Shown one piece after another: positions 1,136 to 61,971 of a stretch of 64,000 nt of DNA (within the stretch, counting starts at the first letter, position 1; every line of letters begins with the position of its first letter). The translations under genes and the position numbers were made by a program. The stretch is taken from assembly GCF_006716445.1 (NCBI RefSeq), contig NZ_VFPA01000002.1:682001-746000 (forward strand). Direction: 5' to 3'. The notes below the pieces were generated by a model that was not told where the DNA came from, did no database searches, and saw only the letters and a program-made list of their open reading frames with translations. Source of the stretch: Pseudonocardia kunmingensis (GTDB taxonomy: Bacteria; Actinomycetota; Actinomycetes; Mycobacteriales; Pseudonocardiaceae).

Positions 1136-1156
1136 ATGCTACCTATTCAGTAGCAT
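1136..1156. promoter_or_regulatory. Inverted repeat ATGCTAC-N7-GTAGCAT
   Basis: Two perfect 7-bp arms flank a 7-bp centre. The repeat covers the stop codon of the tandem CaiB gene and ends 20 bp before the DUF2889 start, so it could be an operator or a weak RNA hairpin. Similar GCTAC/GTAGC arms occur at 19130-19147. Confidence 0.35.
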
Positions 1157-46490: not shown

Positions 46491-47278
46491 TGACTGCTCG
46501 CCGCTTCTCGACCCTGGACGTCCGCGTCGACGGGCCGGTCGCCTGGGTCCGGTTCGACCGCCCGGACGCGCGCAACGCCGTGACGACGGAGATGGTCGTC
46601 GAGATGCACGCGGCCCTCACCGGGCTCAGCCGCGACGACGCGCTGACCGTCGTGGTGCTGACGGGGGCGGGTTCGACGTTCTGCCCCGGCGCGGACCTGA
46701 ACCGGGCCGGATCGTCCGAGCCCGTGGATCTCCCGGGCCTCGAGGTGTACCAGTCGGCGACCCTGCTCCACGCGATGCCGCAGCTGACGGTCGCGGCGGT
46801 CAACGGTGGGTGCGCTGGCGCGGGGTTCGCGTGGGCGGCCGCCTGCGACCTGCGGGTCGCGGCAGCCGGAGCGCGGTTCTCCACCGCGTTCCTGCAGGTC
46901 GGGCTGGCGAGCGAGCTCGGGCTGCCGTGGACCCTGTCGCGGTCGGTCGGCGGCGCGATGGCCCGTGACCTGTGTTTCCTGCCCCGCAAGCTCGACGCCG
47001 AGGAGGCTTTCCGCATGGGGTTCCTGTCCCGGGTGTTACCCGACGAGCGCTTCGCCGACGAGGTGGGCGCGTTGGTGGACGAGCTCGGGTCGCGCAGCCC
47101 GGCGGCGGTGCGCGCGATGAAGGCGAACTTCCTGCTCGCCGAGCGCAGCGACCTCGCCGGCTACGTGGAACAGGAGGCGCGGCGCCACCAGGCCTTCTTC
47201 ACCGGCGCCGCCCGCGAGGAGACCGTACGGGCGCTGCGGCGCCAGGGCGAGCGGGTGCACCGGGGGGCAGAGGCGTGA
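46490..47278 (+). CDS. Enoyl-CoA hydratase/isomerase (crotonase) family protein
   Basis: A 262-residue crotonase with oxyanion segments CPGADLN and NGGCAGAGFAWAAACDL, and a glutamate in GLASELGLPW. The first hydratase Glu position is not Glu (GAGFAW), so the activity could be isomerase- or hydrolase-like. It is overlapped by the lipoprotein stop (1 nt) and overlaps the racemase start (47275-47278), putting it inside a tightly packed operon with the racemase, kinase and thiolase-fold genes. Confidence 0.87.
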   Translation: MTARRFSTLDVRVDGPVAWVRFDRPDARNAVTTEMVVEMHAALTGLSRDDALTVVVLTGAGSTFCPGADLNRAGSSEPVDLPGLEVYQSATLLHAMPQLTVAAVNGGCAGAGFAWAAACDLRVAAAGARFSTAFLQVGLASELGLPWTLSRSVGGAMARDLCFLPRKLDAEEAFRMGFLSRVLPDERFADEVGALVDELGSRSPAAVRAMKANFLLAERSDLAGYVEQEARRHQAFFTGAAREETVRALRRQGERVHRGAEA

Positions 47279-48432
47279 CCGGCCCGCTCACCGGGATCCG
47301 GGTGCTCGAGCTCGCCGCGATCGGGCCGCTGCCGCTGGCCGGGATGCTGCTCAGCGACCTCGGAGCGGAGGTCGTGCGCGTCGACCGGGTCCACGGCACC
47401 GCCGCCGACCTCGGCGGAGCCCGCTTCGACGTGCACGGTCGCGGGCGCCGATCGGTCGGGATCGACCTGAAGCAGCCGTCGGGGGCGGAGTTGCTGCTGC
47501 AGCTGTGCGAGCGGGCCGACGTCCTGATGGAGGGCTTTCGCCCGGGCGTCATGGAGCGGCTGGGCGTCGGACCGCAGGAGTGCCACGCGCGCAACCCCGA
47601 CCTGGTCTACGGCCGGATGACGGGGTGGGGGCGCGGAGGGCCACTGTCCGCGACCGCGGGTCACGACATCAACTACATCGCCGTGGCGGGAGCGCTGCAC
47701 CCCATCGGCCATGCGGACCGCCCACCCGTGCCGCCGCTCAACCTCGTCGGCGACTTCGGCGGCGGCGGCACGGTGCTCGCGCTGGGCGTGGTCGCCGCGC
47801 TCGCCGCCCGGGCGCGCGGGCAGGCGGACGGCCAGGTCGTCGACGCGGCGATGGTCGACGGCACCGGGCTCCTGATGGGCGTCGTCCAGGGACAGCTGGC
47901 CTCCGGGAGATGGACCGAGGAACGGGAGAGCAACGGCCTCGACGGCTCGGCCCCCTGGTACCGGACCTACGAGACGGCGGATGGCCGGTACGTGGCCGTC
48001 GGGGCGATCGAGCCGAAGTTCTGGGCCGAGCTACTCGACCGGCTCGGGATCGCCGGGGACCCCGCGTTCCGGGACCGGTACGACCGGAGCGGGTGGCCCC
48101 GGATGCGCGAGCGGCTGATCGAGGTGTTCGCCACGCGGACGCGCGACGGGTGGGAGCGGCACTTCGCGGGCTCGGACGCGTGCGTCGCGCCGGTGCTCAC
48201 TCCCCGCGAGGCGACGGCTCACCCGCAGGCCCTGGCCAGGGCGGCCTACACGGATCTCGAGGGCGTGCCGCATCCGGCACCTGCCCCGCGGCTCTCGGCG
48301 ACGCCCGCCCGCGTCGCCGGTCCGGCCCCGACTCCCGGGGAGCACACCGACGCGGTGCTCGCCGAGTGGGGCGTGTCCGAGGAGGAGATCGCCACGTTGC
48401 GGGCGGCGGGCACCGTAGGAAGGAGCGGGTGA
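47275..48432 (+). CDS. Alpha-methylacyl-CoA racemase
   Basis: A 385-residue single-domain CaiB/BaiF-fold protein. H130 and D131 in ATAGHDINYIAVAGAL, D160 in GDFGGGG and E246 in VGAIEPKFW line up with the catalytic His, Asp and Glu of Mycobacterium MCR (H126, D156, E241), and identify a racemase and not a CoA-transferase. It interconverts (R)- and (S)-2-methylacyl-CoAs so that a stereospecific dehydrogenase can act. The GTG start overlaps the crotonase stop. Its presence implies a methyl-branched substrate. Confidence 0.88.
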   Translation: MTGPLTGIRVLELAAIGPLPLAGMLLSDLGAEVVRVDRVHGTAADLGGARFDVHGRGRRSVGIDLKQPSGAELLLQLCERADVLMEGFRPGVMERLGVGPQECHARNPDLVYGRMTGWGRGGPLSATAGHDINYIAVAGALHPIGHADRPPVPPLNLVGDFGGGGTVLALGVVAALAARARGQADGQVVDAAMVDGTGLLMGVVQGQLASGRWTEERESNGLDGSAPWYRTYETADGRYVAVGAIEPKFWAELLDRLGIAGDPAFRDRYDRSGWPRMRERLIEVFATRTRDGWERHFAGSDACVAPVLTPREATAHPQALARAAYTDLEGVPHPAPAPRLSATPARVAGPAPTPGEHTDAVLAEWGVSEEEIATLRAAGTVGRSG

Positions 48433-48451
48433 TCGTGGTGGAGGAGCCGAG

Positions 48452-49480
48452 TTGAGCATCGTCACGAGCAGCGACGAGCTGGTGGAGCAGCTGACGGCCC
48501 GCACCGCGGTGGCCGTCCGCGGGTGGGCGCCGGATGCGGGCGTGGTGGGCATCGAGCCGCTCACCGGCGGCGCGTCGAGCCTGACCTACGTGGCGGAGCT
48601 GTCCGGCGCCCCGCGCGGCGACGAGCGCATCGTCCTCAAGGTGGCCCCACCCGGGCTCGCGCCGGTCCGCAACCGTGACGTGCTGCGCCAGGCGCGGCTC
48701 ATGGAGGCGGTGGAGGGGAAGCCCGGGGTGCGGGTGCCCCGGGTCCTGTTCTCCGATGTCGGCGACCCGCCGCACACCCCGCCGTTCCTGGCGATGGCGC
48801 TCGTGCCCGGCGACTGCGTGGAACCCGTCCTCGCGCCTCGCGGAACGCTGCCTCCCGCGCAGGTGCGCGCCCGAGCCCTCGACGCCGCCCGGATGCTCGC
48901 CGCCCTGCACCGCGTCGATCCTGTGGCGACCGCGCTCGCCACGGAGCCGGTGGTCTCGCTCGGTGCCGAGATCGACCGCTGGACCAGGGCGTTCACCACG
49001 GTCCCCGACGACCTGAGCGAGGGGTACGAGGCCGTCGCGGACCGGTTGCACGCCACGATGCCGCCGGCGATGGCGCCGGTCGTCACCCACGGCGACTACC
49101 GGATCGGCAACACCCTGTGCGAGGGCGACCGGGTCACCGCGATCATCGACTGGGAGATCTGGTCGCTCGGCGACCCCCGTGTCGACATCACGTGGTTCAC
49201 CTTCTTCACCGACGAGGCGCAGCACCCCGCGGCCCCGTCCGCCGAGCCGACCGGGATGCCGACCAAGGCCGAGATCGTCGACGCTTACCACGAGGCGCGT
49301 GGCGAGCTGCTCACGGACCTGCGCTGGTTCGAGGCCCTCACCAAGTACAAGGAATCCGCGGCGACCGCCCTGCTGATCAAGCGCGGCCGCCGGAGTGGGC
49401 CGCTGAACGAGTCGATGCGGCGCATGCTGCCCGCACTGGCGCAGCTGCGGCGGGAGGCGATGGCGCTCGTCTCCCCGTGA
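48452..49480 (+). CDS. APH-family kinase (ACAD10/11 kinase-domain-like)
   Basis: A 342-residue aminoglycoside-phosphotransferase-fold kinase. It has Lys in IVLKVAPPG, the Brenner motif HGDYRIGN (H213, D215, N220) and DWEIWSLGDP (D233). The block VAPPGLxPVRNRDVLRQAR is shared with the kinase at 56893, so the two are paralogs. This subfamily includes the kinase domains of ACAD10/ACAD11 and LvaA, which phosphorylate hydroxyacyl-CoAs, not antibiotics. The TTG at 48452 follows GAGGAG. Unlike the kinase at 56893, no acyl-CoA dehydrogenase is adjacent; neighbours are a racemase and a thiolase-fold gene. Confidence 0.85.
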   Translation: MSIVTSSDELVEQLTARTAVAVRGWAPDAGVVGIEPLTGGASSLTYVAELSGAPRGDERIVLKVAPPGLAPVRNRDVLRQARLMEAVEGKPGVRVPRVLFSDVGDPPHTPPFLAMALVPGDCVEPVLAPRGTLPPAQVRARALDAARMLAALHRVDPVATALATEPVVSLGAEIDRWTRAFTTVPDDLSEGYEAVADRLHATMPPAMAPVVTHGDYRIGNTLCEGDRVTAIIDWEIWSLGDPRVDITWFTFFTDEAQHPAAPSAEPTGMPTKAEIVDAYHEARGELLTDLRWFEALTKYKESAATALLIKRGRRSGPLNESMRRMLPALAQLRREAMALVSP

Positions 49481-49527
49481 CCAGGGCGCAGCACACCTCG
49501 TCCACACCACAACCTTCTGGAGGTCCG

Positions 49528-50679
49528 GTGAGTCGCACGTTGCAGGACGCCGCCGTCGTGGGGATCGGCCGGACCCCGTACGTGAGGTCGTCCGGTCGCA
49601 CACCGGTGTCGATGGCCGCCGAGGCCGCCCGGGATGCTTTGGCCGACTGCGGGCTCACGCCGGCCGACGTCGACGGCTTCACATGCTTCGGCACCACCGA
49701 CACCGCGCGCCCGAGTGCGGTCGCCCACGCCATAGGAGTGGAGGATCTCGGCTGGTGTGTCAGCGTCTCCGGCGGCGGGAACATCGTCACCTCGACCGTC
49801 AGCGGCGCGGCCATGGCCGTCATCTCCGGCCAGGCCGACGTGGTGGTCGTCTACCGCGTGCTCGGCTCGGAGACCCGTTACGGAAGGGCCCTCGACCGGG
49901 TCGACGTCGGCGGTGAGGGCCAGTTCGCCGGCCCCCAGGGCTACCTGGTGCCGCCGCAGTGGTTCGCCATGTTCTGCCGGCGCCACCAGTACGAGTACGG
50001 CTCGACGTCGGAGGACCTCGGTGCGATCGCCGTCCAGCAGCGGGCCCACGCGTCACGCAACCCCCATGCGGTCGCGCGCACGCCGATCACGATCGACGAC
50101 TACCTGAACAGCCGGTGGATCAGCGAGCCGTTCCGGCTGTACGACTGCACCTACGAGGTCGACGGCGCGGTCGCGATCGTGGTGACCTCGGCCGAGCGGG
50201 CGGCGGACCTGCCCCACAAGCCGGTCCACCTGCTCGGCGCGGCCGACAGCAACCGCTTCGGCGGCTCCGTCGACCAGTGGGACGACCTGACCAGCATGTA
50301 CTCCCGAGACACGGCTCCCAAGCTGTGGTCCCGCACCGGCCTTCGGCCCTCCGACATCGACGTGGCCTGCATGTATGACTGCTTCACCTTCACGGTCATG
50401 GCCACGTTCGAGGACTTCGGGTTCTGCGGCAAGGGCGAGGTGGGCGGCTTCTTCCGCGAGGGCCGAGCCACCTTCGGCGGTGACGTGGTCGTCAACCCGC
50501 ACGGCGGGCTGCTCTCGGAGGGCTACATCCACGGCCTCAACCACCACTACGAGGCAGTGCTCCAGCTGCGGGGCGAGGCGGGTGACCGCCAGGTGGCCGG
50601 GGCCGAGAGCGCACTCGTCACCTCCGGCGCGGGCCCCTACGGGGGCGCCCTCGTCTACGGCACGGAGGCCATGCTGTGA
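49528..50679 (+). CDS. Thiolase-fold protein (lipid-transfer/Ltp2-like), possible aldolase
   Basis: A 383-residue thiolase-superfamily protein. It has the N-terminal AAVVGIGRTPYVRSSG, PSDIDVACMYDCFTFTVMATFEDFGFC and the late NPHGGLLSEGYIHG. The region that normally holds the nucleophilic Cys (CASG) reads VSVSGGGNI, so classical thiolysis is unlikely. Thiolase-fold proteins without this Cys that are encoded next to DUF35 partners include Ltp2, which cleaves side chains by a retro-aldol reaction. The GTG at 49528 follows TGGAGG. It overlaps the DUF35 gene by 4 nt. Confidence 0.82.
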   Translation: MSRTLQDAAVVGIGRTPYVRSSGRTPVSMAAEAARDALADCGLTPADVDGFTCFGTTDTARPSAVAHAIGVEDLGWCVSVSGGGNIVTSTVSGAAMAVISGQADVVVVYRVLGSETRYGRALDRVDVGGEGQFAGPQGYLVPPQWFAMFCRRHQYEYGSTSEDLGAIAVQQRAHASRNPHAVARTPITIDDYLNSRWISEPFRLYDCTYEVDGAVAIVVTSAERAADLPHKPVHLLGAADSNRFGGSVDQWDDLTSMYSRDTAPKLWSRTGLRPSDIDVACMYDCFTFTVMATFEDFGFCGKGEVGGFFREGRATFGGDVVVNPHGGLLSEGYIHGLNHHYEAVLQLRGEAGDRQVAGAESALVTSGAGPYGGALVYGTEAML

Positions 50680-51104
50680 CCGACGCCCACTCCATCCCGC
50701 CCCAGCCGGTGCCCGACCCCGACACCGCGCCCTTCTGGGCGGCGGCGGCAGCCGGTCACCTGGCCCTGTGCCGCTGCCAGGACTGCAAGCTCTGGATGCA
50801 GCCCCCTCTCGACCGGTGCCGTGTCTGCGCGGGGCCGACGGCCTTCGAGGACGTGACCGGCTACGGCACCCTCTACTCGTTCATCGTGCAGCATCGTGCG
50901 ACGGTGCCCGGCTACCTCGACGACCTGCCCTACACCGTGGGCCTGGTCGAGCTGGACGAGCAGTCCGGGCTCCGCTTGCCCGGCAGGCTCGTCGGCATCG
51001 ACCACGGCGAGGTGGCCTGCGGGATGCGGGTGCGGGCCGAGCTGGTCGACCTGCCGGGAGGTGAGTTCCGGGTTCCGGTCTTCCGGCCCGTGGATCCGCC
51101 GTGA
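50676..51104 (+). CDS. DUF35 zinc-ribbon/OB-fold protein
   Basis: A 142-residue protein. A rubredoxin-like zinc ribbon with CQDCKLW and CRVCAGP (two Cys pairs) lies near residues 33-58 and an OB-fold follows (GTLYSFIVQHRATVPGY to the end). DUF35 proteins are obligate partners of thiolase-fold enzymes, as ChsH2 is for Ltp2 and hydratases. The GTG start overlaps the preceding stop, so the two proteins probably form a complex. Confidence 0.9.
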   Translation: MTDAHSIPPQPVPDPDTAPFWAAAAAGHLALCRCQDCKLWMQPPLDRCRVCAGPTAFEDVTGYGTLYSFIVQHRATVPGYLDDLPYTVGLVELDEQSGLRLPGRLVGIDHGEVACGMRVRAELVDLPGGEFRVPVFRPVDPP

Positions 51105-51433: not shown

Positions 51434-52528
51434 ATGAAGCGGCAACGACGCTGTCTGGCCGGGTTGGTGGCGATCGGTCTCGCTCTCGCGGGGTGCGGTG
51501 GTGGCGAGGCGGGGTCCGGTGGGGCCGCTGGGGTCGCAGGTCCGCCCGACACGGACGGCGCCCTGCGGTTCGCCTGGACGATCCCGGCGCAACCGCTCGA
51601 TCCGCACACGCCGGTGTCGAGCGTCGCGCAGTCGCCCTACATCTTCCCGATCTATGACCGCCTGACCCAGCTGGTCGGCGGCCCGACACTCGAGCCGATG
51701 CTGGCCACCGAGTGGTCCTTCAGCCCGGACGGGCAGCAGGTGACCTTCGTGCTGCGCGACGACGTGACCTTCCACGACGGCACCGTGCTCGATGCGGACG
51801 CGGTGAAGGTGAGCCTGGACCGGGCACGGAACATCGACCAGGTCAAGGTCCGCCAGGCCCTCAACTACGCGATCGACCGCGAGGGCCTGGACGAGGCGAT
51901 CCTCGACGGGCAGCGCACCCCGCAGGCGCAGCCGCTCACGAGCGTCTACGAGGGGCATCTCGAGACCCCGCCCGTCGAGTACACGCACGACCCGGAAAAG
52001 GCCAGACGGTTACTCACCGAAGCGGGACCGCCGGGCGGCTTCGAGATGTCGCTGCTGGTCGGTTCGGGCCTCTCGCCGCAGGACAAGATGGCGCCGGTGC
52101 TGCAGGCGCAGCTGGGCGAGGTCGGCGTCCGGGTGGCCATCGGGTCCTTCGACCCGGTGTAGGTCAACGACCTGTGGAAGCCCGGCTCCGAGTACGACGC
52201 CTACCTCAACACCCGGGTGGCCGGCCCGACCGCCGGGATCACGCTGCGCGACAACTACCTCCTGCCCAGCCGGTACCCCGGCCCCACGCCTCCCGGCTTC
52301 CAGGAGGCCGTGAGCAGATCGTTCGAGACGGCACTGACGGACGAGGAACGCGTCGCGACGCTCCGGCAGGCATCGGAGATCGCCGTGAACGAGGCGATGG
52401 ACCTGTTCCTCTGCGCGCTCCCGACCCAGATCGCCTACAGCGACCGCATGATCGGGGCGGAGTCGATGGGGCATTCCGACTTCCAGGGGGTCTTCGACCT
52501 GCGCTACGCCGGCATCGCGGCCGACTGA
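51434..52528 (+). pseudogene. Decayed solute-binding lipoprotein gene: internal deletion plus in-frame TAG
   Basis: The 5' part encodes a lipoprotein signal (LVAIGLALAGC) and SBP family 5 segments close to the gene at 44937. At SLDRAR the text jumps directly to NIDQVKVRQALNYAIDREG; in the paralog the same points are residues 126 and 286, so about 159 residues, including most of domain 1, are missing without a frame change. A TAG at 52160-52162 then interrupts the same frame, after which RVAGPTAGITLRDNYLLPSRYPGPTPPGF continues to a TGA at 52528. Both lesions make a functional binding protein unlikely. Its end overlaps the convergent CaiB gene by 25 bp. Confidence 0.88.
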
Positions 52529-54804
52529 CCACCACCTGGACTTCCCGTCGCCGGGTCGGCAACGATCGCGTACCCCTCGCGCAGCGACCCGACGGTCTGG
52601 AGCAGTGCGGTCGCCTCCGCCCAGTCGGCCCGCGTGGCGGCCGGGCCGGGCCGCACCGGGCGGAAGTAGCCGCTCACCAGGCGGAACCGGCCGAGCTGCG
52701 GGTCGCGCACGACGTGGGTGAAGCCGTTCTCGGTCAGGTAGGGGTCGGTGAGGAACCCGGCTCGCGGTGCGCTGGTGCAGGCCGGCACGCCGAGCCGGTC
52801 GAGCTCGGTGAGCCAGTGCTCCACCGGGCGCGTAGCGAGCGCTTCCGCGACCGCGTCGTGGGTGAGGGTGCCCAGCCCGAGCAGCGCGGCCACGGCCTGT
52901 TGCTGATCAGGGGTGCACGCCGCGAGCGCGAGCCATCCGTCGGCGGCCCGGTGGTAGCGGCGCGCGGGTTCCGGGCCGCGGTGGTCCCGGCCGCCCTGCT
53001 CGGTGGGCGGGCGGCCCGGATAGCCGGCCAGTTCGGCGATCTGCACGAAGGTCGACGTCGCGGCCAGTGAGGTGGTGACGTGCTGGCCGTGCCCGGTTCG
53101 TTCCCGCTCAATCAGGGCGGCGAGCGCGCCGAACGCGGTGAGCGCGCCGGTGGCCACGTCGACGGTCGGTGCCGCGGTGGCGACCGGCTCGTCGTCGCCA
53201 CCCTGCGCCGCGGCAAGCCCGGAGCGCGACTGCAGGACGGGGTCGAAGCCCGGCAGGTCGGCGAACGGTCCGGACCGACCGAAGGCCGACACCGATGCCC
53301 GTACCAGGCGCGACTCGCCTGTCGTGAGCACCGAGTCGGTGAGCTCGAGCCGTGCCGCGTTCGCCGGGCGCAGGTTGTCGACCAGCACGTCGGCCTGCTC
53401 CGCGAGCCGCAGCAGCGCCGCATGACCCTCGGGACTGCGCAGGTCGACCGACGCCACGGTCTTGGCGTGGTTGACCGCCGCGTACGCCGAGGAGAACACC
53501 CCGTACGGGTCACCGCGCGGCGGCTCCACCTTCACCACGCTCGCGCCGAGGTCGGCCATCAGCGTCCCGGCGAACGGCGCGGCGAGGAACGTGCTGATGT
53601 CCACCACGCGCAAGCCCGTGAGCGGGAGTGACGGTGCTGGACCCTGCGGTGCCGGCCGGGCCCGGGTGTCGGACCAGAGATCGTCCGCGTTCACGAGGTG
53701 AGCGGCGCCGGGCAGGTGCCGGATCCCCACCGGGGTCGCCGAGAACGCGAGTGGGACACCAGGCAGGACGACCGCGCCGGCCTCGGGGTGCTCCACGGTG
53801 ACCGGCGGCGCCGCGGAGGCGACGATCTCGCCGCTCAGCCACTCCTCGCGCGGGAGGACCGGCGCGCACGGCACACCCGCCTCCCCGAGGATGGCGAGCC
53901 ACTCGTCGCGCGGTCGTTCGGCGAAGGTGCGCTCCAGCTCGGCGCCGACGGCGCGCCCGATCTCGGGCCGCAACGTGTTCGTGAACTCGCCCTCGACTCC
54001 GGGCAGGAGCATGACGTCCATCCGGTCCAGTGCGGTCAGGGCCGGGAGGAAGAACTGGACGGTGAGCGCTGAGAGGTGCAGCCACTGCCCGTCGCCGCAG
54101 CAGTAGGTACGGAAGCTCGGCCGGGTTCCCAGGCGGCCGTCCGGCGTCACGACGTGCTCGGCGTCGATCCCCTCCACCACCAACGTCGCGAGGCAGGCGG
54201 CCGAGGCGTGCAGGCCCGTCGTCTCCACGGCCCGACCGTGTCCGGTGCTCCGGACACCGAGAAGACCCGCGGTGGCCAGCACCGCGCCGAGCGCACCGTG
54301 CACCGCTGCCAGCATCGGCACGGCCGACGCGATCGGGCTGCCCGGCTCGTAGGAGGGGTGGTAGGTCGCGAACCCGCCGAGCGCGGAGACCAGCAGCGGG
54401 TCGGCGGGCAGGTGGCGCCAGCGGCCCTGCGCGCCGCACGGCGGCATCGCGACGTGCACGAGCGCCGGTGCGGACGCCAGCAGCGATTCCGCATCGAGAC
54501 CCGCGGGCCGCTGCGCACCGGCCGGGGCGTCGTCCAGCAGCACGTCGGCCGCACCGGCGAGACGGCGCAGGCCTGCCGCGTCCCGGCCGGGAGCGACGGG
54601 CGTGAACCGCTTCCCGCGGTCCCAGCAGAGGTCACCGGGGCCCGACGGCGAACCCGGGTCCGCCGGCCGCCACCCCGGTGGGACCACGCGCACCACATCG
54701 GCGCCCAGGTCGGCCAGCAGCATCCCGGCCGTCCGGCCGGCCTGCCCCGTCGTCAGCTCCAGAACCCGCACACCGGCAAGCGGACCCGTCCGGCCGGTCG
54801 TCAT
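52504..54804 (-). CDS. Tandem (two-domain) CaiB/BaiF CoA-transferase
   Basis: A 766-residue protein of two family III domains. Domain 1 begins near residue 9 (GVRVLELTTGQAGRTAGM), domain 2 near 393 (GLRVVDISTFLAAPFAGT). Candidate catalytic aspartates are D135 (ADPLLVSALGG) and D521 (LPGFDPVLQ). Domain 1 is divergent: the first helix region lacks the usual GPxxxQ pattern. The ATG at 54804 shares one base with the SDR stop. It is the last gene of the operon APH kinase, ACAD, SDR, CaiB. Its end overlaps the decayed lipoprotein gene. Confidence 0.88.
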   Translation of the reverse strand: MTTGRTGPLAGVRVLELTTGQAGRTAGMLLADLGADVVRVVPPGWRPADPGSPSGPGDLCWDRGKRFTPVAPGRDAAGLRRLAGAADVLLDDAPAGAQRPAGLDAESLLASAPALVHVAMPPCGAQGRWRHLPADPLLVSALGGFATYHPSYEPGSPIASAVPMLAAVHGALGAVLATAGLLGVRSTGHGRAVETTGLHASAACLATLVVEGIDAEHVVTPDGRLGTRPSFRTYCCGDGQWLHLSALTVQFFLPALTALDRMDVMLLPGVEGEFTNTLRPEIGRAVGAELERTFAERPRDEWLAILGEAGVPCAPVLPREEWLSGEIVASAAPPVTVEHPEAGAVVLPGVPLAFSATPVGIRHLPGAAHLVNADDLWSDTRARPAPQGPAPSLPLTGLRVVDISTFLAAPFAGTLMADLGASVVKVEPPRGDPYGVFSSAYAAVNHAKTVASVDLRSPEGHAALLRLAEQADVLVDNLRPANAARLELTDSVLTTGESRLVRASVSAFGRSGPFADLPGFDPVLQSRSGLAAAQGGDDEPVATAAPTVDVATGALTAFGALAALIERERTGHGQHVTTSLAATSTFVQIAELAGYPGRPPTEQGGRDHRGPEPARRYHRAADGWLALAACTPDQQQAVAALLGLGTLTHDAVAEALATRPVEHWLTELDRLGVPACTSAPRAGFLTDPYLTENGFTHVVRDPQLGRFRLVSGYFRPVRPGPAATRADWAEATALLQTVGSLREGYAIVADPATGSPGGGQSAAMPA

Positions 54805-55568
54805 CAGTACAGCCCGCCATCCACCCGGATCAGTGCCCCGGTCGTGTAGCTGGAGGCGTCGCCTGCCAGGTAGAGGGCGGTGCCGACGATCTCCTCCGGC
54901 GTGCCGGGCCGGCCCGAGGCGCTGCGCGTGCGCCGGCGGTTCTCCTCGGGCCACGCCTTGGAGATGTCGGTGAGGAACGGGCCGGCGGAGATGGTGTTGA
55001 CCCGCACGGTGGGGCCGTACTCGAGCGCGAAGACCGTGGTCAGCGCGTTCAGCGCGGCCTTGGCGCCGGCGTAGGGCCCGAACTTCGGCTGCGGCATCAG
55101 CGCCCCGGACGAGGACACGTTGATGATCGAGCCGCCGTCCCCGTCGGCCATCCGCCTGCCGACGAGCGACGCCAGCCGGAACGGGCCCTTGAAGTTCACG
55201 CCGACGACCTTGTCGAACAGTTCCTCGCTGGTGTCCTCCGATGACGGCGCGAGCGGGGACATCCCGGCGTTGTTGACCAGGATGTCGACCTTGCCGAACT
55301 CGGCGTAGGCGGCGTCGGTGAGCCGGCCGAGGTCGTCCCAGTGCCCGACGTGGGCCGCGACGGGCAGCGCGCGCCTGCCGAGGCTGCGGACCTCTTCGGC
55401 GGCGGCCTCGCACGAGTCGAGCTTGCGGCTGGTGATGACGACGTCGGCCCCGGCGGCGGCGAAGGCGCGCACCATCTCCAGGCCGAGCCCACGGCTGCCG
55501 CCGGTGACCAGGGCGACCTTCCCGCTGAGGTCGAAGAGATCCGCTGCGCCGCGGGCCGCCGTCGTCAT
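54804..55568 (-). CDS. SDR family oxidoreductase
   Basis: A 254-residue SDR: cofactor motif TGGSRGLG, NNAGMSP, catalytic Ser in INVSSSGALMPQPKFG and YAGAK, terminal GALIRVDGGLY. The middle part resembles gluconate-5-dehydrogenase- or 3-oxoacyl reductase-like SDRs. In the levulinate pathway the corresponding gene (LvaD) is a 3-hydroxyacyl-CoA-level SDR, which suits the neighbours here. The ATG at 55568 overlaps the ACAD stop as ATGA. Confidence 0.88.
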   Translation of the reverse strand: MTTAARGAADLFDLSGKVALVTGGSRGLGLEMVRAFAAAGADVVITSRKLDSCEAAAEEVRSLGRRALPVAAHVGHWDDLGRLTDAAYAEFGKVDILVNNAGMSPLAPSSEDTSEELFDKVVGVNFKGPFRLASLVGRRMADGDGGSIINVSSSGALMPQPKFGPYAGAKAALNALTTVFALEYGPTVRVNTISAGPFLTDISKAWPEENRRRTRSASGRPGTPEEIVGTALYLAGDASSYTTGALIRVDGGLY

Positions 55569-56884
55569 GCGTTCACCCGCCCGGCGAGGCCGTCGTCGCC
55601 CAGGATGTGGGCGTAGCGCTTGCGCGCGGCCTCCAGCTTCGGCGGGATGTGCTCGCTCGGGAACAGGCCCTCGGCCGCGCTGTGGTTGCGCAGCACCTGC
55701 TTGGCGATCGTGGTCCGGTGCACCTCGGTGGGGCCGTCGGCGAGCGCGAGGCTGGGGACGCCCATCCACCAGTGGGCCAGCGGGAGTTCGTTGGTGGTGC
55801 CGAGCGAGCCGTGCAGGTGCAGGGCGCGCTGGATGATGTCGTGCAACACCTTGGCCATCGCGACCTTGCACATCGCGATCTGGGTGCGGGCGGCGCCGTG
55901 CGGCTGGGTGTCGATCACCCAGGCGGTGTTCAGCACGAGCAGCCGGTACTGCTGCAACTCGATCCAGGAGTCGGCGATGAACTGCTGCACGGCCTGCTTC
56001 TCGGCGAGCACGGTGCCCTGGGTGCGTCGTGACAGAGCGCGCTCGCACATCATGTCGAAGGCGCGCGTGCACTTGCCGACGGTGCGCATGGCATGGTGCA
56101 CGCGGCCGCCGCCCAGGCGGGCCTGCGCCACTGTGAAGCCCTCGCCGGGACCACCGAGCATCGCGTCGAGCGGCACCCGGACCTGGTGGTAGCGGATGTA
56201 GCCGTGGATGCCCTCGTCCTCGGAGTCGCGCTCGTCCATCGTGCCGACGTTGCGCTTGATCTCGATGCCCGGCGTCTCGGCGGGGACGACGAACATCGAC
56301 ATCCGCGAGTGCGCGGGCGCGTCGGGCTCGGTGACGGCCATGACGATGAGGAAGGAGGCGTAGCGGGCGTTGGAGGAGAACCACTTCTCCCCGTCGATCA
56401 CCCACTCGTCCCCGTCCTGCCAGGCGCGGCAGCGGAACTCCTTCGGGTCGGCCCCGGCGTGCGGCTCGGTCATGGAGAACGTGGAGACGATGTCACCGTC
56501 GAGCAGTGGCTGCAGGTAGCGGGCCTTCTGCTCGTCGGTGCCGAACATCGCGAGGATCTCGGCGTTGCCGGTGTCGGGAGCCGCGGTGCCGAAGACCGTC
56601 GGTGCCCAGTACGAGCGGCCGAGGATCTCGTTGAGATAGGCGAGCTTGACCTGGCCGTAGCCGGGGCCACCGAGCTCGGGGCCGAGGTGGCAGGCCCACA
56701 GGCCCTGGGCCCTGACCTGCTCCTGCAGCGGCTTGATGATCGCGCGGGCCTTGGCGTTGCCGGTGTCGTACGGGTCGCCGCCGTGCGGGAACAGCAGGTC
56801 GAGCGGCTCCACCTCCTCACGCACGAAGCGTGCCGCCCAGTCCAGCTTGGCCTGGTACTCCGGTTCGATCGAGAAGTCCAGCAT
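55565..56884 (-). CDS. Acyl-CoA dehydrogenase family protein, ACAD10/11 type
   Basis: A 439-residue flavoprotein, somewhat longer than ordinary acyl-CoA dehydrogenases (about 380-400). It has GPELGGPGYGQVKLAYLNEILGR, FSMTEPHAGADP, GEKWFSSNA, and the late LHGSLGTTNELPLAHWWM and ALADGPTEVHRTTIAKQVL, typical of the ACAD10/ACAD11 branch. In that branch the dehydrogenase-like domain removes phosphate from a 4-phosphoacyl-CoA made by the kinase and does not simply desaturate. The ATG at 56884 has AGGAGAA upstream. The kinase gene ends 8 bp before it. The specific reaction here is inference. Confidence 0.87.
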   Translation of the reverse strand: MLDFSIEPEYQAKLDWAARFVREEVEPLDLLFPHGGDPYDTGNAKARAIIKPLQEQVRAQGLWACHLGPELGGPGYGQVKLAYLNEILGRSYWAPTVFGTAAPDTGNAEILAMFGTDEQKARYLQPLLDGDIVSTFSMTEPHAGADPKEFRCRAWQDGDEWVIDGEKWFSSNARYASFLIVMAVTEPDAPAHSRMSMFVVPAETPGIEIKRNVGTMDERDSEDEGIHGYIRYHQVRVPLDAMLGGPGEGFTVAQARLGGGRVHHAMRTVGKCTRAFDMMCERALSRRTQGTVLAEKQAVQQFIADSWIELQQYRLLVLNTAWVIDTQPHGAARTQIAMCKVAMAKVLHDIIQRALHLHGSLGTTNELPLAHWWMGVPSLALADGPTEVHRTTIAKQVLRNHSAAEGLFPSEHIPPKLEAARKRYAHILGDDGLAGRVNA

Positions 56885-56892
56885 CGGTTCTC

Positions 56893-57933
56893 CTAGGTGA
56901 GGTGGGTGGTGGCGGCCGCGAGCAGCAGCGGGATCCCGCGCCGCATCTTCTCGACCTGCTCGGTGACCTCGCCGCGACGCTCGGCGTTCTTGACCAGCAG
57001 TGCCGACGCGGCGGCCTGCTTGTACCGGACGAGCGCGTCGAACCAGCCCATGTCGGGAACGGTGCGACCAGTGGCGTGCTCGTACACCGCGAGCAGCTCG
57101 TCGGGCTCCAGCGTCGGTGCCTCGGGTGCCGACACCGTGGGGTGCGTGGGATCGGACATCAGGCGCATCCAGGCGAGGTCCAGCCGCGGGTCGCCCACCG
57201 ACCAGATCTCCCAGTCGATCACCGCGCGGATCTCCGCACCGAGGCACTGCATGTTGCCCAGCCGCCAGTCGCCGTGCAGCACCGCAGGCTCGAGCGTGGC
57301 GGGGACCGACCCAGCGAGCAGATCCCGGCACCGCGCCTCCGCCTGGGTCGCGGCTGGTTCGAGCTCGCAGGTGCCGAACGCCTTCGTCCAGCGGCCGATC
57401 TCGGCCTCGAGGGCAACGGGCGCCTCGTCCAGCCCGAGTGCGGCCGGGCCGGTGGCGTGCAGGGCGGCCAGCATGCGCGCCGCGCCGGCGGCACGGGCCC
57501 GCATCTCGTCGGCCGGCGGTCGGGTCCCGGCGGCCACGTGCCGCGGTTCGTAGCTCTCGCCCTCGGCGAAGGACATCACGAACAGCGGCGGCACCTCGGG
57601 CGGGGCACCGGCCTCGGTGCCGAGCACTGCGGGCACCGCGACGTCCGCGACGTCCGCGAGCGCGGCCAGCACCCGCGCCTGGCGCAGGACGTCGCGGTTG
57701 CGCACCGGCTCAAGGCCCGGGGGCGCCACCTTCACGACGACCTGGTCCCCGGCGTCGGTGCAGGCGGAGTAGGTGATGCTGGACGTCCCGCCGGGCAGCG
57801 GCGTCAGGTCGCGCAGCGGCGTGCCCGCCGCGATCGTCGCGCGACGCAGCACGTCCTGCGGGTCGGCCACGCCGACCCGCGCCCGTGTCACGGACTCCCG
57901 GGTCGTGGCGGTGGTCTGCATGTGCTCGGGCAT
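56893..57933 (-). CDS. APH-family kinase (ACAD10/11 kinase-domain-like, LvaA-like)
   Basis: A 346-residue APH-fold kinase with Lys in VVVKVAPPG, HGDWRLGN (H220, D222, N227) and DWEIWSVGDP (D240). It shares VAPPGLxPVRNRDVLRQAR and the C-terminal RYKQAAASALLVKNAERRG pattern with the kinase at 48452. It is first in its operon, just ahead of the ACAD10/11-type gene, matching the kinase plus ACAD domain order of human ACAD11 and the LvaA/LvaC pair of Pseudomonas putida. The ATG at 57933 follows GGAGA. It is divergent from the TetR gene. Confidence 0.87.
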   Translation of the reverse strand: MPEHMQTTATTRESVTRARVGVADPQDVLRRATIAAGTPLRDLTPLPGGTSSITYSACTDAGDQVVVKVAPPGLEPVRNRDVLRQARVLAALADVADVAVPAVLGTEAGAPPEVPPLFVMSFAEGESYEPRHVAAGTRPPADEMRARAAGAARMLAALHATGPAALGLDEAPVALEAEIGRWTKAFGTCELEPAATQAEARCRDLLAGSVPATLEPAVLHGDWRLGNMQCLGAEIRAVIDWEIWSVGDPRLDLAWMRLMSDPTHPTVSAPEAPTLEPDELLAVYEHATGRTVPDMGWFDALVRYKQAAASALLVKNAERRGEVTEQVEKMRRGIPLLLAAATTHLT

Positions 57934-58000
57934 GAGGTCTCCGTCTCGGTCGCCGGCGAGAACTGAGTACCGGTGCACAAGAACTGGATTCTGTCCCGGC

Positions 58001-58019
58001 AGTACTCGGACCGTACACT
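58001..58019. promoter_or_regulatory. Imperfect operator AGTACTCGGACCGTACACT and -10 of the TetR gene
   Basis: AGT/ACT outer and CGG/CCG inner pairs are symmetric about the central A, in the 93-bp gap between the divergent kinase and TetR genes. TACACT (58014-58019 region) lies about 8 bp before the TetR ATG, consistent with a leaderless transcript and with autorepression. Confidence 0.4.
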
Positions 58020-58026
58020 GGGCGTT

Positions 58027-58686
58027 ATGACGAGTCCACAGGCCGCGGACGGCCGGCTTGCCGAGGAGTCGCTCGCCGCGCAGGCCGTCCGTCGCCGCAC
58101 CGGTGACCGGTACGCCGTGGCCGAGGACGAGGTGCGCCGCCTGCTCGACGTGGGCCTGGAACTGATGCGCGAGGATCCGGCGGGCAATCCCAAGATTGCC
58201 GAGATCGTGCGCCGTGCGCGGGTCTCCAACGATGCCTTCTACCGGGCCTTCCGCAGCAAGGACGACCTGATGGCGGCGATCGCCGACGATGGTGCGCGCC
58301 GCCTGCTCGGCCACGTGCGCCATCAGCGCGACAAGCACGTCGACCCGGTGGAGCAGATCAGGGCATGCGTCCTGGCCGTGTTCAAGCAGGCCGCCGACCC
58401 CGAGGTGGCGGCTACGACCCGCGCGGTGCTGCGGCACACGACCCGCGCCGCGAAGCCGTCGTCCGGCGGGGTCGAGCTGCGCAAGCAGCTTTCCGACCTC
58501 CTCGCGGAGTCGCTCGCCGCGTGCGGGAGCGCGGATCCCGCGCGGGACGCCCTCGTCGCCGCGTGCGCCGTGTTCGCCGTCATGGAGCAGTTCCTGTGGA
58601 CCGAACGCGCGCCATCGGACGACGACGTCGAGCATCTGGTCGCCTGGATCGTGCCGTCGGTCGTCGTGTCGTCACCGGCGGGATGA
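58027..58686 (+). CDS. TetR family transcriptional regulator
   Basis: A 219-residue regulator. After an unstructured start, the helix-turn-helix is near residues 58-85 (PKIAEIVRRARVSNDAFYRAFRSKDDLMAAI), followed by a helical ligand domain. The ATG at 58027 has no ribosome binding site but follows a -10-like TACACT, suggesting leaderless translation; an in-frame ATG at 57973 is less likely. It lies between the divergent kinase-ACAD operon and the ligase operon, so it is the natural local regulator; an acyl-CoA ligand would be typical. Confidence 0.88.
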   Translation: MTSPQAADGRLAEESLAAQAVRRRTGDRYAVAEDEVRRLLDVGLELMREDPAGNPKIAEIVRRARVSNDAFYRAFRSKDDLMAAIADDGARRLLGHVRHQRDKHVDPVEQIRACVLAVFKQAADPEVAATTRAVLRHTTRAAKPSSGGVELRKQLSDLLAESLAACGSADPARDALVAACAVFAVMEQFLWTERAPSDDDVEHLVAWIVPSVVVSSPAG

Positions 58687-58694
58687 GTATCCGC
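58683..58694. promoter_or_regulatory. GGATAC site before the last acyl-CoA ligase
   Basis: On the minus strand reads GCGGATACTCAT. It overlaps the TetR stop codon in the 92-bp gap before the ligase at 58779 and shares GCGGATACT with the other such sites. Confidence 0.35.
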
Positions 58695-58778
58695 AATCTG
58701 TGGACGGGCGATTTCCGCGCTGTTAACGTCGGATCCGGCAGAGCACCCGCGTCGCTCCGCCGGTGACGAGGAGGTCGC

Positions 58779-60332
58779 ATGCACCTGAGCCGGCTCGCCG
58801 CGACGTACGGCGCCAAGCCCGCCGTCGTCATGGCGAACTCGAGGGAGGTCATGACCTACCGGGAGCTCGAGGAGCGGTCGAACCGCATCGCGCAGCTGTT
58901 CCGGCAGCGCGGCCTGCGCCCTGGCGACCACATCGCGATCCTGCTGGCGAACCAGATCGAGCTGTTCCCGATCGTCTGGGCGGCGCAGCGGTCCGGGCTG
59001 CTCTACACCCCGGTGAACTGGCACCTGAGCGAGGCCGAAGCGGCGTACATCGTCGCCGACTGCGGTGCCCGCATGTTGATCTCGGCGGCATCCCTCGAAC
59101 CCGTCGCGGCGGCCGCGGCCACCGCGGCGCCGGCGCTCGAGTCGCGGGTCGTCGTGGGCGACGTGGCGGGGCAGCAGTCGCTCGACGACGCGGTGGCCGG
59201 CCTGCCGGCATCCCCCATCGACGACGAGGTCGAGGGCAACTACATGTTCTACTCGTCGGGCACGACGGGGCGCCCCAAGGGCATCACGCCCGAACTGTCC
59301 GGGGCGCCGTTCGGCACCGGGCTCACGATCGACACCACGATGGCGACGGCGTTCGGGTTCTCCGCCGACTCGGTCTACCTCTGTCCCGGCCCGCTCTACC
59401 ACGCCGCGCCGCTGGGGTGGTCGATCGGGACGATCCGGAACGGCGGAACGGTCGTCGTCATGGAGCGGTTCGATGCGCGCCAGGTGCTCGAGCTGGTTCA
59501 GGAGCAGCGGGTGACGCACGGGCAGTTCGTCCCGACCATGTTCGTCCGCATGCTGAAGCTCGATTCCACCGTGCGCGCCGCCCACGACCTGTCCAGCCTG
59601 CAGGTGGTGGTGCACGCGGCCGCACCGTGCCCGGTCGAGGTCAAGCAGAAGATGATCGACTGGGTCGGGCCGATCCTGTTGGAGTATTACGCGGGCAGCG
59701 AGGGCAACGGCTTCTGCATGATCGACAGCCCGACGTGGCTGGAGCGTCGGGGGTCGGTGGGACGGGCGCTGATCGGCGAGGTCCACGTGTGCGACGGCGA
59801 CGGCGTCGAGCTGGAGCCCGGACAGATCGGGACGATCTGGTTCGGCGGGACGAAGCGCTTCGCCTACCACAACGATCCCGGGAAGACGGCCTCTGCGTAC
59901 AACGACCGTGGCTGGAGCACCCTCGGCGACCTCGGCCACGTGGACCCCGCCGGGTTCGTCTACCTGTCCGACCGGCGCTCCGATCTGATCATCTCCGGCG
60001 GGGTGAACGTCTACCCGCGCGAGATCGAGGACGTCCTGGTGCTGCACCCGGCCGTCGCCGACGTGGCGGTCATCGGGCTGCCCGACGAGGAGATGGGCCA
60101 GCGGGTGCACGCGGTCGTGCAGCCGGCGGCCCAGGAGCTGCCCGACACCCTCGCCGACGAGCTCATCGCGTTCTGCCGGGAGCGGATCGCGGGGTTCAAG
60201 GTGCCGCGCACGTTCACGTTCGACCGCGAGTTCCCCCGGCTGCCCAGCGGCAAGGTGTTGCGGCGCGTGCTGGTGGAGCGGTACGGGCCGGCGTCATCGA
60301 GTGCAGCGTCATCGAGCGCACCGAGCGCATGA
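58779..60332 (+). CDS. AMP-dependent acyl-CoA ligase
   Basis: A 517-residue ANL enzyme: P-loop YSSGTTGRPKGITPE, EYYAGSEGNG, GWSTLGDLGHV, hinge DRRSDLIISGGVNVYP and C-terminal Lys in LPSGKVLRR. It sits downstream of the TetR gene and is divergent from the kinase-ACAD operon; in the levulinate pathway LvaE is the matching acyl-CoA ligase. A Ser/Ala-rich tail (ASSSAASSSAPSA) follows the catalytic end. GACGAGGAGG precedes the ATG at 58779. It probably activates the acid processed by this module. Confidence 0.92.
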   Translation: MHLSRLAATYGAKPAVVMANSREVMTYRELEERSNRIAQLFRQRGLRPGDHIAILLANQIELFPIVWAAQRSGLLYTPVNWHLSEAEAAYIVADCGARMLISAASLEPVAAAAATAAPALESRVVVGDVAGQQSLDDAVAGLPASPIDDEVEGNYMFYSSGTTGRPKGITPELSGAPFGTGLTIDTTMATAFGFSADSVYLCPGPLYHAAPLGWSIGTIRNGGTVVVMERFDARQVLELVQEQRVTHGQFVPTMFVRMLKLDSTVRAAHDLSSLQVVVHAAAPCPVEVKQKMIDWVGPILLEYYAGSEGNGFCMIDSPTWLERRGSVGRALIGEVHVCDGDGVELEPGQIGTIWFGGTKRFAYHNDPGKTASAYNDRGWSTLGDLGHVDPAGFVYLSDRRSDLIISGGVNVYPREIEDVLVLHPAVADVAVIGLPDEEMGQRVHAVVQPAAQELPDTLADELIAFCRERIAGFKVPRTFTFDREFPRLPSGKVLRRVLVERYGPASSSAASSSAPSA

Positions 60333-60349
60333 CGAATTCAGGAGGAGAT

Positions 60350-61114
60350 GTGTCGGACGAGGTCCTCGTCGAGCGCCGCGGCGCCGTCCAGGTCATCACG
60401 ATCAACCGCCCGCAGGCCAAGAACGCCCTGAACGAGTCGGTGGGGAAGGCCGTGGCCGCCGCCGTCGACGAGCTCGACGAGTCGGACGAGCTGTGGGTGG
60501 GGGTGCTGACCGGCGCGGGCGGTACGTTCTCGGCCGGGATGGACCTGAAGGGGTTCCTGCGCGGGGAGAGCCCGTCGATCGAGGGCAGGGGGCTCTGTGG
60601 GATCACCCAGACCCCACCGCGCAAGCCGCTCATCGGCGCCGTGGAGGGCTGGGCCCTGGCCGGCGGGTTCGAGCTGCTGCTCGCCTGCGACCTGGTCGTC
60701 GCCGCGCGCACCGCGAGGTTCGGGGTCCCGGAGGTGAAGCGGTCGCTCGTGGCCGGGGCGGGTGCGGCCATGCTGCTGCCGCGGCGGGTGCCGTTCGCGA
60801 TCGCGCTCGAGATGCTGCTGACCGGCGAGCCGTTCGGCGCCGAGCGCGCGGCCGAGGTCGGCCTCGTCAACCGGCTCACGGACGACGGCGGTGCCCTCGA
60901 CGGTGCGCTCGAGCTGGCCGCCACAGTGGCGGCGAACGGGCCACTCGCGGTGGCGGCGACCAAGCAGATCGCCCGGGCGAGCGCCGACTGGACGCTGGAC
61001 GAGGGCTGGGCGCGCCAGTCCGAGGTCATGAAGCCGGTGTTCGGGTCGGAGGATGCGCGGGAGGGCGCCACGGCGTTCGCGGAGAAGCGGGCGCCGGTGT
61101 GGAAGGGGCGCTGA
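60350..61114 (+). CDS. Enoyl-CoA hydratase/isomerase (crotonase) family protein
   Basis: A 254-residue crotonase. Oxyanion segments TFSAGMDLKGF and EGWALAGGFELLLACDL; the first hydratase Glu is present (GGFEL) but the second is replaced in RSLVAGAGAAM. The GTG at 60350 is preferred because AGGAGGAG lies just before it. An ATG at 60329, overlapping the ligase stop as ATGA, would add seven residues and is the alternative start. It is the second gene of the ligase operon. Confidence 0.88.
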   Translation: MSDEVLVERRGAVQVITINRPQAKNALNESVGKAVAAAVDELDESDELWVGVLTGAGGTFSAGMDLKGFLRGESPSIEGRGLCGITQTPPRKPLIGAVEGWALAGGFELLLACDLVVAARTARFGVPEVKRSLVAGAGAAMLLPRRVPFAIALEMLLTGEPFGAERAAEVGLVNRLTDDGGALDGALELAATVAANGPLAVAATKQIARASADWTLDEGWARQSEVMKPVFGSEDAREGATAFAEKRAPVWKGR

Positions 61115-61128
61115 GGGCGGGTCCGGTC

Positions 61129-61971
61129 GTGCACCGGCTGCAGCCCGCGAAGCTCGTCCACGTCAATCACCTGGTCGACGACTTCGCGGGGACGACGGCG
61201 TTCTACACGGAGGTCTGCGGCGCGCGGGAGTACTGGCGCGGGTACGACGAGGAGCAGCGCCGCGACGCGAACCTCATGGTGATCGGCGAGCTGTGCGTGG
61301 AGTTGTTCGCGCCCGTCGACAGATCATCGCTGCTCGGCGCATCGCTCTCGCGGTACGGGCCCGGCTGGCACTCCTTCGAGTGGCAGGTGCCCGATCTCGA
61401 GGAGGCGAAGGACGCCCTCGACGCGCGTGGCGTCCGGGTCACCACCTACCGGCCGGGCGCGTTCCTCATGGCCCACCCGGCCGACTGCCACGGGATGCTC
61501 CTTGAGCTGTGCCCGCTGGAGATGTCCGGTGACCCCCGGATCGAGCCCGACTGGTCCGCCGCACCGTGGCGCGACGAGCATCCACTCGGCGTCACCGGCC
61601 TGAACGCGCTGTCGGTGGCGGTGCGCGATCTCGCTGCAGCGTCGGCGTGGATCCTCGACCTCGTCTCGGGAGCGGAGGTCGTCTACCGCGAGTTCCGCGA
61701 GGAGGCGGACGCCGACGCGGTCGGCGTGCGCGTGGCCGATCACGTCGTGGAGTTCGTCCAGGCCCGCTCCGAGCGCGGCCCGATCGCCGAGTTCGTGGCG
61801 CGGTACGGGCAGCGCCTGCGGGCGGTCGAGCTCGGGGTGCTCGATCCGGACAGGGCCGCGCGGCACCTGGTGTCGGCCGGCTACGAGGTCGTTCCCGGCG
61901 CCCGCGCGGGCGCGCTCTCCTTCGAGGTCAACGGTGCGCGCTGGGAGCTCGCCGAGCAGCGGGGCCGCTGA
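61129..61971 (+). CDS. Protein with two VOC (glyoxalase-fold) domains
   Basis: A 280-residue protein with two VOC domains of about 130 residues. The first starts at KLVHVNHLVDDFAGTTAFYTEV and ends at GMLLELCPLEM; the second runs from GLNALSVAVRDLAAASAWI to ALSFEVNGARWELAEQ. VOC proteins are metal-dependent epimerases, dioxygenases or lyases; methylmalonyl-CoA epimerase is one family member. A His-Glu metal set is plausible in domain 1 (HVNH, ELF, ELC) but domain 2 seems incomplete. The GTG at 61129 is 12 bp after the crotonase stop. No specific function assigned. Confidence 0.75.
   Translation: MHRLQPAKLVHVNHLVDDFAGTTAFYTEVCGAREYWRGYDEEQRRDANLMVIGELCVELFAPVDRSSLLGASLSRYGPGWHSFEWQVPDLEEAKDALDARGVRVTTYRPGAFLMAHPADCHGMLLELCPLEMSGDPRIEPDWSAAPWRDEHPLGVTGLNALSVAVRDLAAASAWILDLVSGAEVVYREFREEADADAVGVRVADHVVEFVQARSERGPIAEFVARYGQRLRAVELGVLDPDRAARHLVSAGYEVVPGARAGALSFEVNGARWELAEQRGR

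Follow-up and report, generated by a model that had tools for sequence, protein, structure and literature searches.

Results

The window analysed here, a 64-kb stretch of the 9.14-Mb, ten-contig genome of Pseudonocardia kunmingensis (C2:682001-746000), carries a gene for an APH-fold kinase (kin1) followed by genes for an acyl-CoA dehydrogenase (ACAD) and a short-chain dehydrogenase/reductase (SDR); the closest relatives of the locus are found in Streptomyces and Nocardia. A preliminary description of this DNA had named these three genes, a tandem class III CoA-transferase (CaiB) and divergent genes for a TetR regulator, an acyl-CoA ligase, a crotonase and a VOC protein, and all of them were recovered by open reading frame calls and family scans (Table 1). 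The frame calls also confirmed the 8 bp reported between the kin1 stop codon and the ATG of the ACAD gene. Neighbouring genes overlap by 4 bases (ACAD/SDR), 1 base (SDR/CaiB) and 4 bases (ligase/crotonase). A longer kin1 frame, reaching position 58635, was rejected as an open shadow over the TetR gene.

The ACAD carries a probable phosphate-elimination signature

The window ACAD resembles ACAD11 (37 to 38% identity in the fold alignment) more than it resembles other ACADs, and among solved structures 4hr3 and ACAD11 have the nearest folds. The motif ADGPTEVHR is present as described, although it occupies residues 382 to 390 of 439 and is not the ending of the protein. As had been anticipated, the usual catalytic Glu is missing; the catalytic residue is an Asp, D383, which matches D753 of ACAD11. 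R256, H264 and R267 correspond to R626, H634 and R637, the residues that hold the phosphate in ACAD11 and that are required according to mutation data for that enzyme. The full signature (Asp plus R/H/R) is kept in all 80 fetched relatives, 18 of which have DGA in place of DGP, and is absent from 24 of 24 other ACADs examined in the own genome, where 30 of 52 ACAD matches were checked. The ACAD half is therefore a further member of the LvaC/ACAD10-11 group, with phosphate elimination as its predicted reaction. Eighteen loci (the copy of the window itself, L009, plus 17 near-copies that are mostly mycobacterial) and 22 own-genome ACADs had been removed from one further ACAD tree, which was not relied on.

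The kinases belong to a clade of their own

Both motifs noted earlier for kin1, HGDWRLGN and DWE, were found, and the APH fold is accompanied by the catalytic Asp/Asn and the metal Asp; K67, Q84 (at the alphaC Glu position), D221, N226 and D239, in alignment-copy numbering, are invariant in alignments A1 and A3. kin1 forms a separate actinobacterial clade, here termed RQ, with support of 100/99 against the references ACAD11, 3dxp and 9o56 (LvaA was not in the trees; the first kinase tree was limited to matches of at least 150 bits, with each own-genome gene entered once). All 33 clade rows, and all 20 further kinases taken from the 22 non-own kinases of the kinase-first search described below, have Gln in place of the alphaC Glu and no longer have Arg176 of ACAD11 (Ala in kin1). 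Arg86 of ACAD11 is kept in kin1. Given the separate clade, the residue losses and an identity of about 25% to the ACAD11 kinase, orthology to ACAD11-type kinases is rejected, so that the proposed likeness of the pair to ACAD10/11 holds for the ACAD and fails for the kinase. The absence of the ACAD11 kinase domain from the best 50 fold matches of the kinase is no evidence either way.

A grouping with antibiotic phosphotransferases had been set beforehand as one outcome that would refute the proposed chemistry. An antibiotic kinase is rejected as well, the APH(3') model of NCBIfam scoring 20.4 bits against a cut-off of 205. In a second tree, of 47 hand-picked rows, the RQ clade joins the 25-hydroxysteroid kinase (25-HSK; 9fsg) and Rv3168 (3ats) at 92/75, a placement that depends on the root. 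A literature search, with most subscription papers beyond its reach, found no study of an actinobacterial kinase-ACAD pair of the RQ clade.

Linkage between RQ kinases and signature ACADs

In the own genome, an APH gene is found within 2 kb of four of the six ACADs that carry the signature. For the remaining 46 ACAD matches (22 of them unchecked for the signature) the count is one; by our arithmetic such linkage would arise by chance in about 3 of 10,000 cases. This comparison used 40 of 44 APH rows, the four omitted being second pieces of listed genes. The 80 relatives comprise 41 loci whose ACAD is at least 63% identical (L039-L079) and 39 more distant ones, mostly from mycobacteria (L080-L118). 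An APH kinase is present in the examined flank of 39 of the 41 closer loci.

Because starting from the ACAD biases the linkage, the search was also run from the kinases: a model built on alignment A3 was passed over 246 genomes of the class at a cut-off of 1e-50, with at most eight candidates scored per genome. Matches were obtained in 22 genomes, the own genome included. For fifteen of the 22 non-own matches, an ACAD matching that of the window at 1e-55 is found within 2 kb, and for two more at 10.0 and 11.2 kb. Uniform placement would put about 0.10 within 2 kb, a simple estimate that ignores the clustering of catabolic genes. The full signature is present in 11 of the 15 linked ACADs, three have Tyr at the H634 position and one was not fetched. 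In this kinase-started sample, the RQ clade is linked to signature ACADs beyond simple chance expectation.

A conserved three-gene unit and local additions

An SDR scoring above 200 bits, in a frame ending 0.3 to 1.5 kb behind the ACAD frame, is found in 37 of the 41 closer loci. Kinase-ACAD-SDR, in the order of lvaA-C-D, is on this evidence of gene order the conserved unit; the preliminary description had not remarked on the match. It had counted the CaiB and the VOC protein as added parts of the module. In the 80 loci, with each frame credited to its best query only, no CaiB match exceeded 169 bits and no VOC match reached the 60-bit reporting threshold; a ligase above 300 bits occurs in 2 loci, a TetR above 200 bits in 4 and a crotonase above 380 bits in 12. 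We accordingly reject the idea that the CaiB, VOC and FadD4-like ligase of the window are conserved companions; they are local to it. Such clusters can carry other CaiB, VOC and ligase genes, as L119 does.

Kinase neighbours differ while the ACAD is retained

ACADs of Pseudomonadota (Sphingopyxis, Novosphingobium and others; 12 loci) are 63 to 75% identical to the window ACAD, and the neighbouring kinases in these loci have Glu at alphaC and Arg at the place of Arg176; the one measured is 25% identical to kin1. In a tree of 37 rows, ACADs with either type of neighbour kinase form a single clade (29 rows, 100/99). Provided that neighbouring genes encode partners, at least one exchange of the kinase would have taken place, in either direction: placing the Pseudomonadota ACADs inside or beside the actinobacterial ones is left undecided by the topology test (p-AU 0.279), and so the direction is not fixed. 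According to PMC11342911, identity to LvaA is 29% for the kinase domains of ACAD10 and ACAD11, and identity to LvaC is 62% and 56% for the respective ACAD domains. By this measure the kinase is the looser half of the pair, and here the looseness appears to extend to another clade.

Two kinase paralogues

The closest own-genome relative of kin1 (46% identity) is a second RQ-clade kinase, kin2, which the preliminary description had not mentioned; it lies 7.4 kb from kin1 and 6 kb from the ACAD gene. An orthologue of kin2 (73.5%) adjoins the ACAD-SDR pair in a cluster on a plasmid of Streptomyces NBC_00080, and such orthologues are the usual neighbour kinases in Streptomyces loci. Among the loci examined, kin1-type genes are confined to the window, L039, L040 and L041 (70 to 73% identical), with deeper relatives at L053 and L142. 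The genomes of L039, L040 and L041 each also carry a kin2-type gene (74 to 75% identical to kin2) on the same contig, at distances of 30.1, 4.6 and 4.6 kb. Other genomes compared hold kin2-type genes without kin1, and at L051, which has no APH gene in its flank, an RQ-clade member is present elsewhere in the genome. Either kin1 or kin2 may be the kinase of the ACAD, as the sequence does not single out one. The kin2 unit (46487-51104), in the order crotonase, CaiB, kinase, Ltp-type thiolase and ChsH2-like OB-fold protein, parallels the kin1 locus. A third APH-family protein (460 aa, QGDTGPGN; L122 16729-18111, C2:680.7-682.1 kb), encoded across the left window edge, is distant from both.

Table 1. 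Genes of the kin1 and kin2 loci (window positions)
Feature	Coordinates	Strand	Basis
APH-fold kinase 1 (kin1), RQ clade, 346 aa	56893-57933	-	PF01636 97.6 bits; residues and clade
ACAD, LvaC/ACAD11 group, 439 aa	55565-56884	-	R256, H264, R267, catalytic D383
SDR, 254 aa, at lvaD position	54804-55568	-	Family scan; gene order as in lva
Tandem class III CoA-transferase (CaiB), 766 aa	52504-54804	-	Two PF02515 stretches; translationally coupled
TetR regulator, divergent from kin1	58027-58686	+	Family scan
Acyl-CoA ligase, FadD4-like	58779-60332	+	NCBIfam FadD4 612 bits, cut-off 850 not reached
Crotonase, EchA19-like	60329-61114	+	EchA19 305 bits, cut-off 400 not reached
Two-domain VOC, methylmalonyl-CoA epimerase-like (below cut-off)	about 61138-61971	+	Family scans
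APH-fold kinase 2 (kin2), kin1 paralogue	48452-49480	+	40-46% identity to kin1; clade
Crotonase and CaiB immediately upstream of kin2	46487-48432	+	Family scan
Ltp-type thiolase and ChsH2-like OB-fold protein immediately downstream of kin2	49480-51104	+	NCBIfam matches below cut-off

The surrounding catabolic region

Comparison of 24 genes from the NBC_00080 large-plasmid cluster with the window and 18 to 19 kb on each side identified counterparts of at least 66% identity for ten, spread over about 80 kb: MaoC (86%), ligase (76%), ACAD (75%), crotonase (81%; the one at 60329-61114 of the window), a second ACAD (88%), SDR (86%), kinase (73.5%), second ligase (77%), a 103-aa protein (66%) and aldehyde dehydrogenase (71%). 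The remaining genes match more weakly (P450, 46%) or not at all. The conserved 103-aa protein, encoded just upstream of a CoA ligase (L122 13064-13375, L119 18852-19163, L120 21048-21356), has no NCBIfam match at 1e-20. The P450, the Ltp-type thiolase with the ChsH2-like OB-fold protein and the EchA19-like crotonase (thiolase and crotonase subtype matches lying below cut-off) suggest a bulky, terpenoid- or steroid-like substrate, and the thiolase/OB-fold pair is a possible C-C cleavage pair.

SMP-30/gluconolactonase-like genes lie near kinase-ACAD pairs in Sphingopyxis (L070 7144-12024) and at another pair of the own genome (L125 7829-13611), and lactones of 4-hydroxy acids would fit as feedstock for these two pairs. 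At the pair in the window, eight proteins were scanned and none belongs to that family.

Three tandem (two-domain) CaiB proteins are encoded within the 64 kb (1143-3407, 41439-43919 and 52504-54804). The same catabolic region holds four intact family 5 solute-binding proteins (4802-6343, 29319-30902, 39730-41343 and 44937-46490) and, at 51434-52528, the remnant of another in two open pieces, lacking about 150 central residues relative to the intact copy at 44937-46490; stretches of the first piece are 53 and 63% identical, and the second has no Pfam match. ABC permease- and ATPase-like genes, judged by eye and without a scan, stand beside most of the four, which by the same inspection would amount to repeated oligopeptide-type uptake systems.

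Discussion

LvaA and LvaC of Pseudomonas putida and human ACAD10 and ACAD11 remove a hydroxyl group by phosphorylation followed by expulsion of the phosphate. Our results point, with a probability of roughly two-thirds, to a kinase-ACAD-SDR unit that uses ATP to take a hydroxyl group off a hydroxyacyl-CoA and is embedded in a catabolic region of about 80 kb, in which an RQ kinase has been recruited as partner from a clade other than that of the ACAD10-11 kinases. The kinase would phosphorylate the hydroxyl, most likely at C4. In the ACAD, D383 would then abstract the C2 proton while R256, H264 and R267 hold the phosphate, and hydride would pass to FAD and back with expulsion of phosphate, giving a 2-enoyl-CoA without net oxidation. 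Hydration by a crotonase or a MaoC protein, oxidation by an SDR and cleavage by the thiolase/OB-fold pair would come next; alternatively the SDR might act earlier, in the manner of LvaD, forming the hydroxyl from a 4-oxo group.

Several observations weigh against this proposal. All 39 distant loci have the ACAD signature, yet an APH gene is present in the examined flank of just 6, and an SDR as defined above in 1. Since the other 33 have the signature and no APH in the flank, the signature does not depend on a kinase next to it; in these mostly mycobacterial loci the kinase may act in trans or the ACAD may catalyse another reaction. Starting from the kinases, five of 22 matches have no such ACAD nearby (four have none on the contig, and one has it at 246 kb). 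No LvaB is encoded in the 8-bp gap between kin1 and the ACAD gene, and no 4-hydroxy substrate was identified. Judged from their residues, the substrate of the RQ kinases need not be a CoA ester, because they lack the alphaC Glu and Arg176.

In an unlikely but substantive alternative, the kinases act like the 25-HSK of Sterolibacterium, phosphorylating an alcohol group, perhaps a tertiary one, on a free terpenoid- or steroid-like molecule, and the ACAD serves elsewhere in the pathway. The 25-hydroxysteroids represent a second known case of ATP-dependent dehydration through a phosphorylated alcohol, according to PMC8449060 and PMC7411048. An ACAD of the present type was considered for the missing 25-phosphosteroid lyase and discarded, as the 25-phosphosteroid substrate carries no CoA. 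An ordinary lva-type operon, with a kinase orthologous to LvaA or ACAD10/11 and a levulinate-like acid as substrate, would account for the identical kinase-ACAD-SDR order and has an ACAD of the right group; however, kin1 stands outside the clade of ACAD11, 3dxp and 9o56, LvaB is missing and the surrounding gene set far exceeds the needs of levulinate, so that we regard it as improbable. Similarly little credit can be given to a conventional alpha,beta-dehydrogenase whose active site is odd, the kinases working at another step and the linkage reflecting a shared catabolic island. The 33 distant relatives without a flanking APH and the 6 kb between kin2 and the ACAD gene speak for it; the Asp with its R/H/R pocket speaks against it, as do the 15 of 22 kinases within 2 kb of such an ACAD where about 0.10 is expected.

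The assignment of kinase-dependent acyl-CoA dehydration to LvaA/LvaC and ACAD10/11 is recent. The ACAD group is already known, and what is new here is the pairing of an eliminase-type ACAD with an RQ kinase. The constancy of the ACAD signature across phyla, with differing kinase neighbours, suggests R..HxMR plus DG[PA] as a search rule for such pathways, and our data provide a reason against annotating RQ kinases as aminoglycoside phosphotransferases. Swapped kinase-ACAD pairs are a natural test set for direct handover of the phosphorylated intermediate. More speculatively, and with the balance of probability against it, the RQ kinases could form an independently recruited family of kinases that activate hydroxyls, the third after LvaA/ACAD10-11 and 25-HSK, and could hold their substrate in another way, and kin1 and kin2 could feed one eliminase, removing two hydroxyls or two stereoisomers of a bulky natural product. 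If so, bacterial catabolism would have in dehydration by phosphate elimination a modular tool of general use, whose kinases are interchangeable.

Compared with known systems, the locus shares with the lva operon the order of kinase, ACAD and SDR and a CoA ligase nearby. It differs in that its ligase is FadD4-like and divergent, in its additional CaiB, VOC, crotonase, second kinase and thiolase/OB-fold pair, and in the lack of LvaB, which the lva order lvaA-(B)-C-D includes; in the region analysed in PMC6692424, the source of that order, Pseudomonas citronellolis is also without lvaB. With the ACAD domains of LvaC and ACAD10-11 (checked against ACAD11), the window ACAD shares the catalytic Asp, the R/H/R phosphate pocket, the fold and a place beside an APH kinase and an SDR, with HAMR where ACAD11 has HCMR. 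With the kinase domains of LvaA and ACAD10-11, again checked against ACAD11, kin1 has in common the APH fold, HGD..N, DWE and Arg86, whereas Gln at alphaC, the loss of Arg176 and its own clade set it apart. Gln at alphaC and the APH fold are found in 25-HSK and in Rv3168 (about 26% identical to kin1), which have WGDAR where kin1 has HGDWR, and 25-HSK activates a hydroxyl with ATP, as we propose for the RQ kinases.

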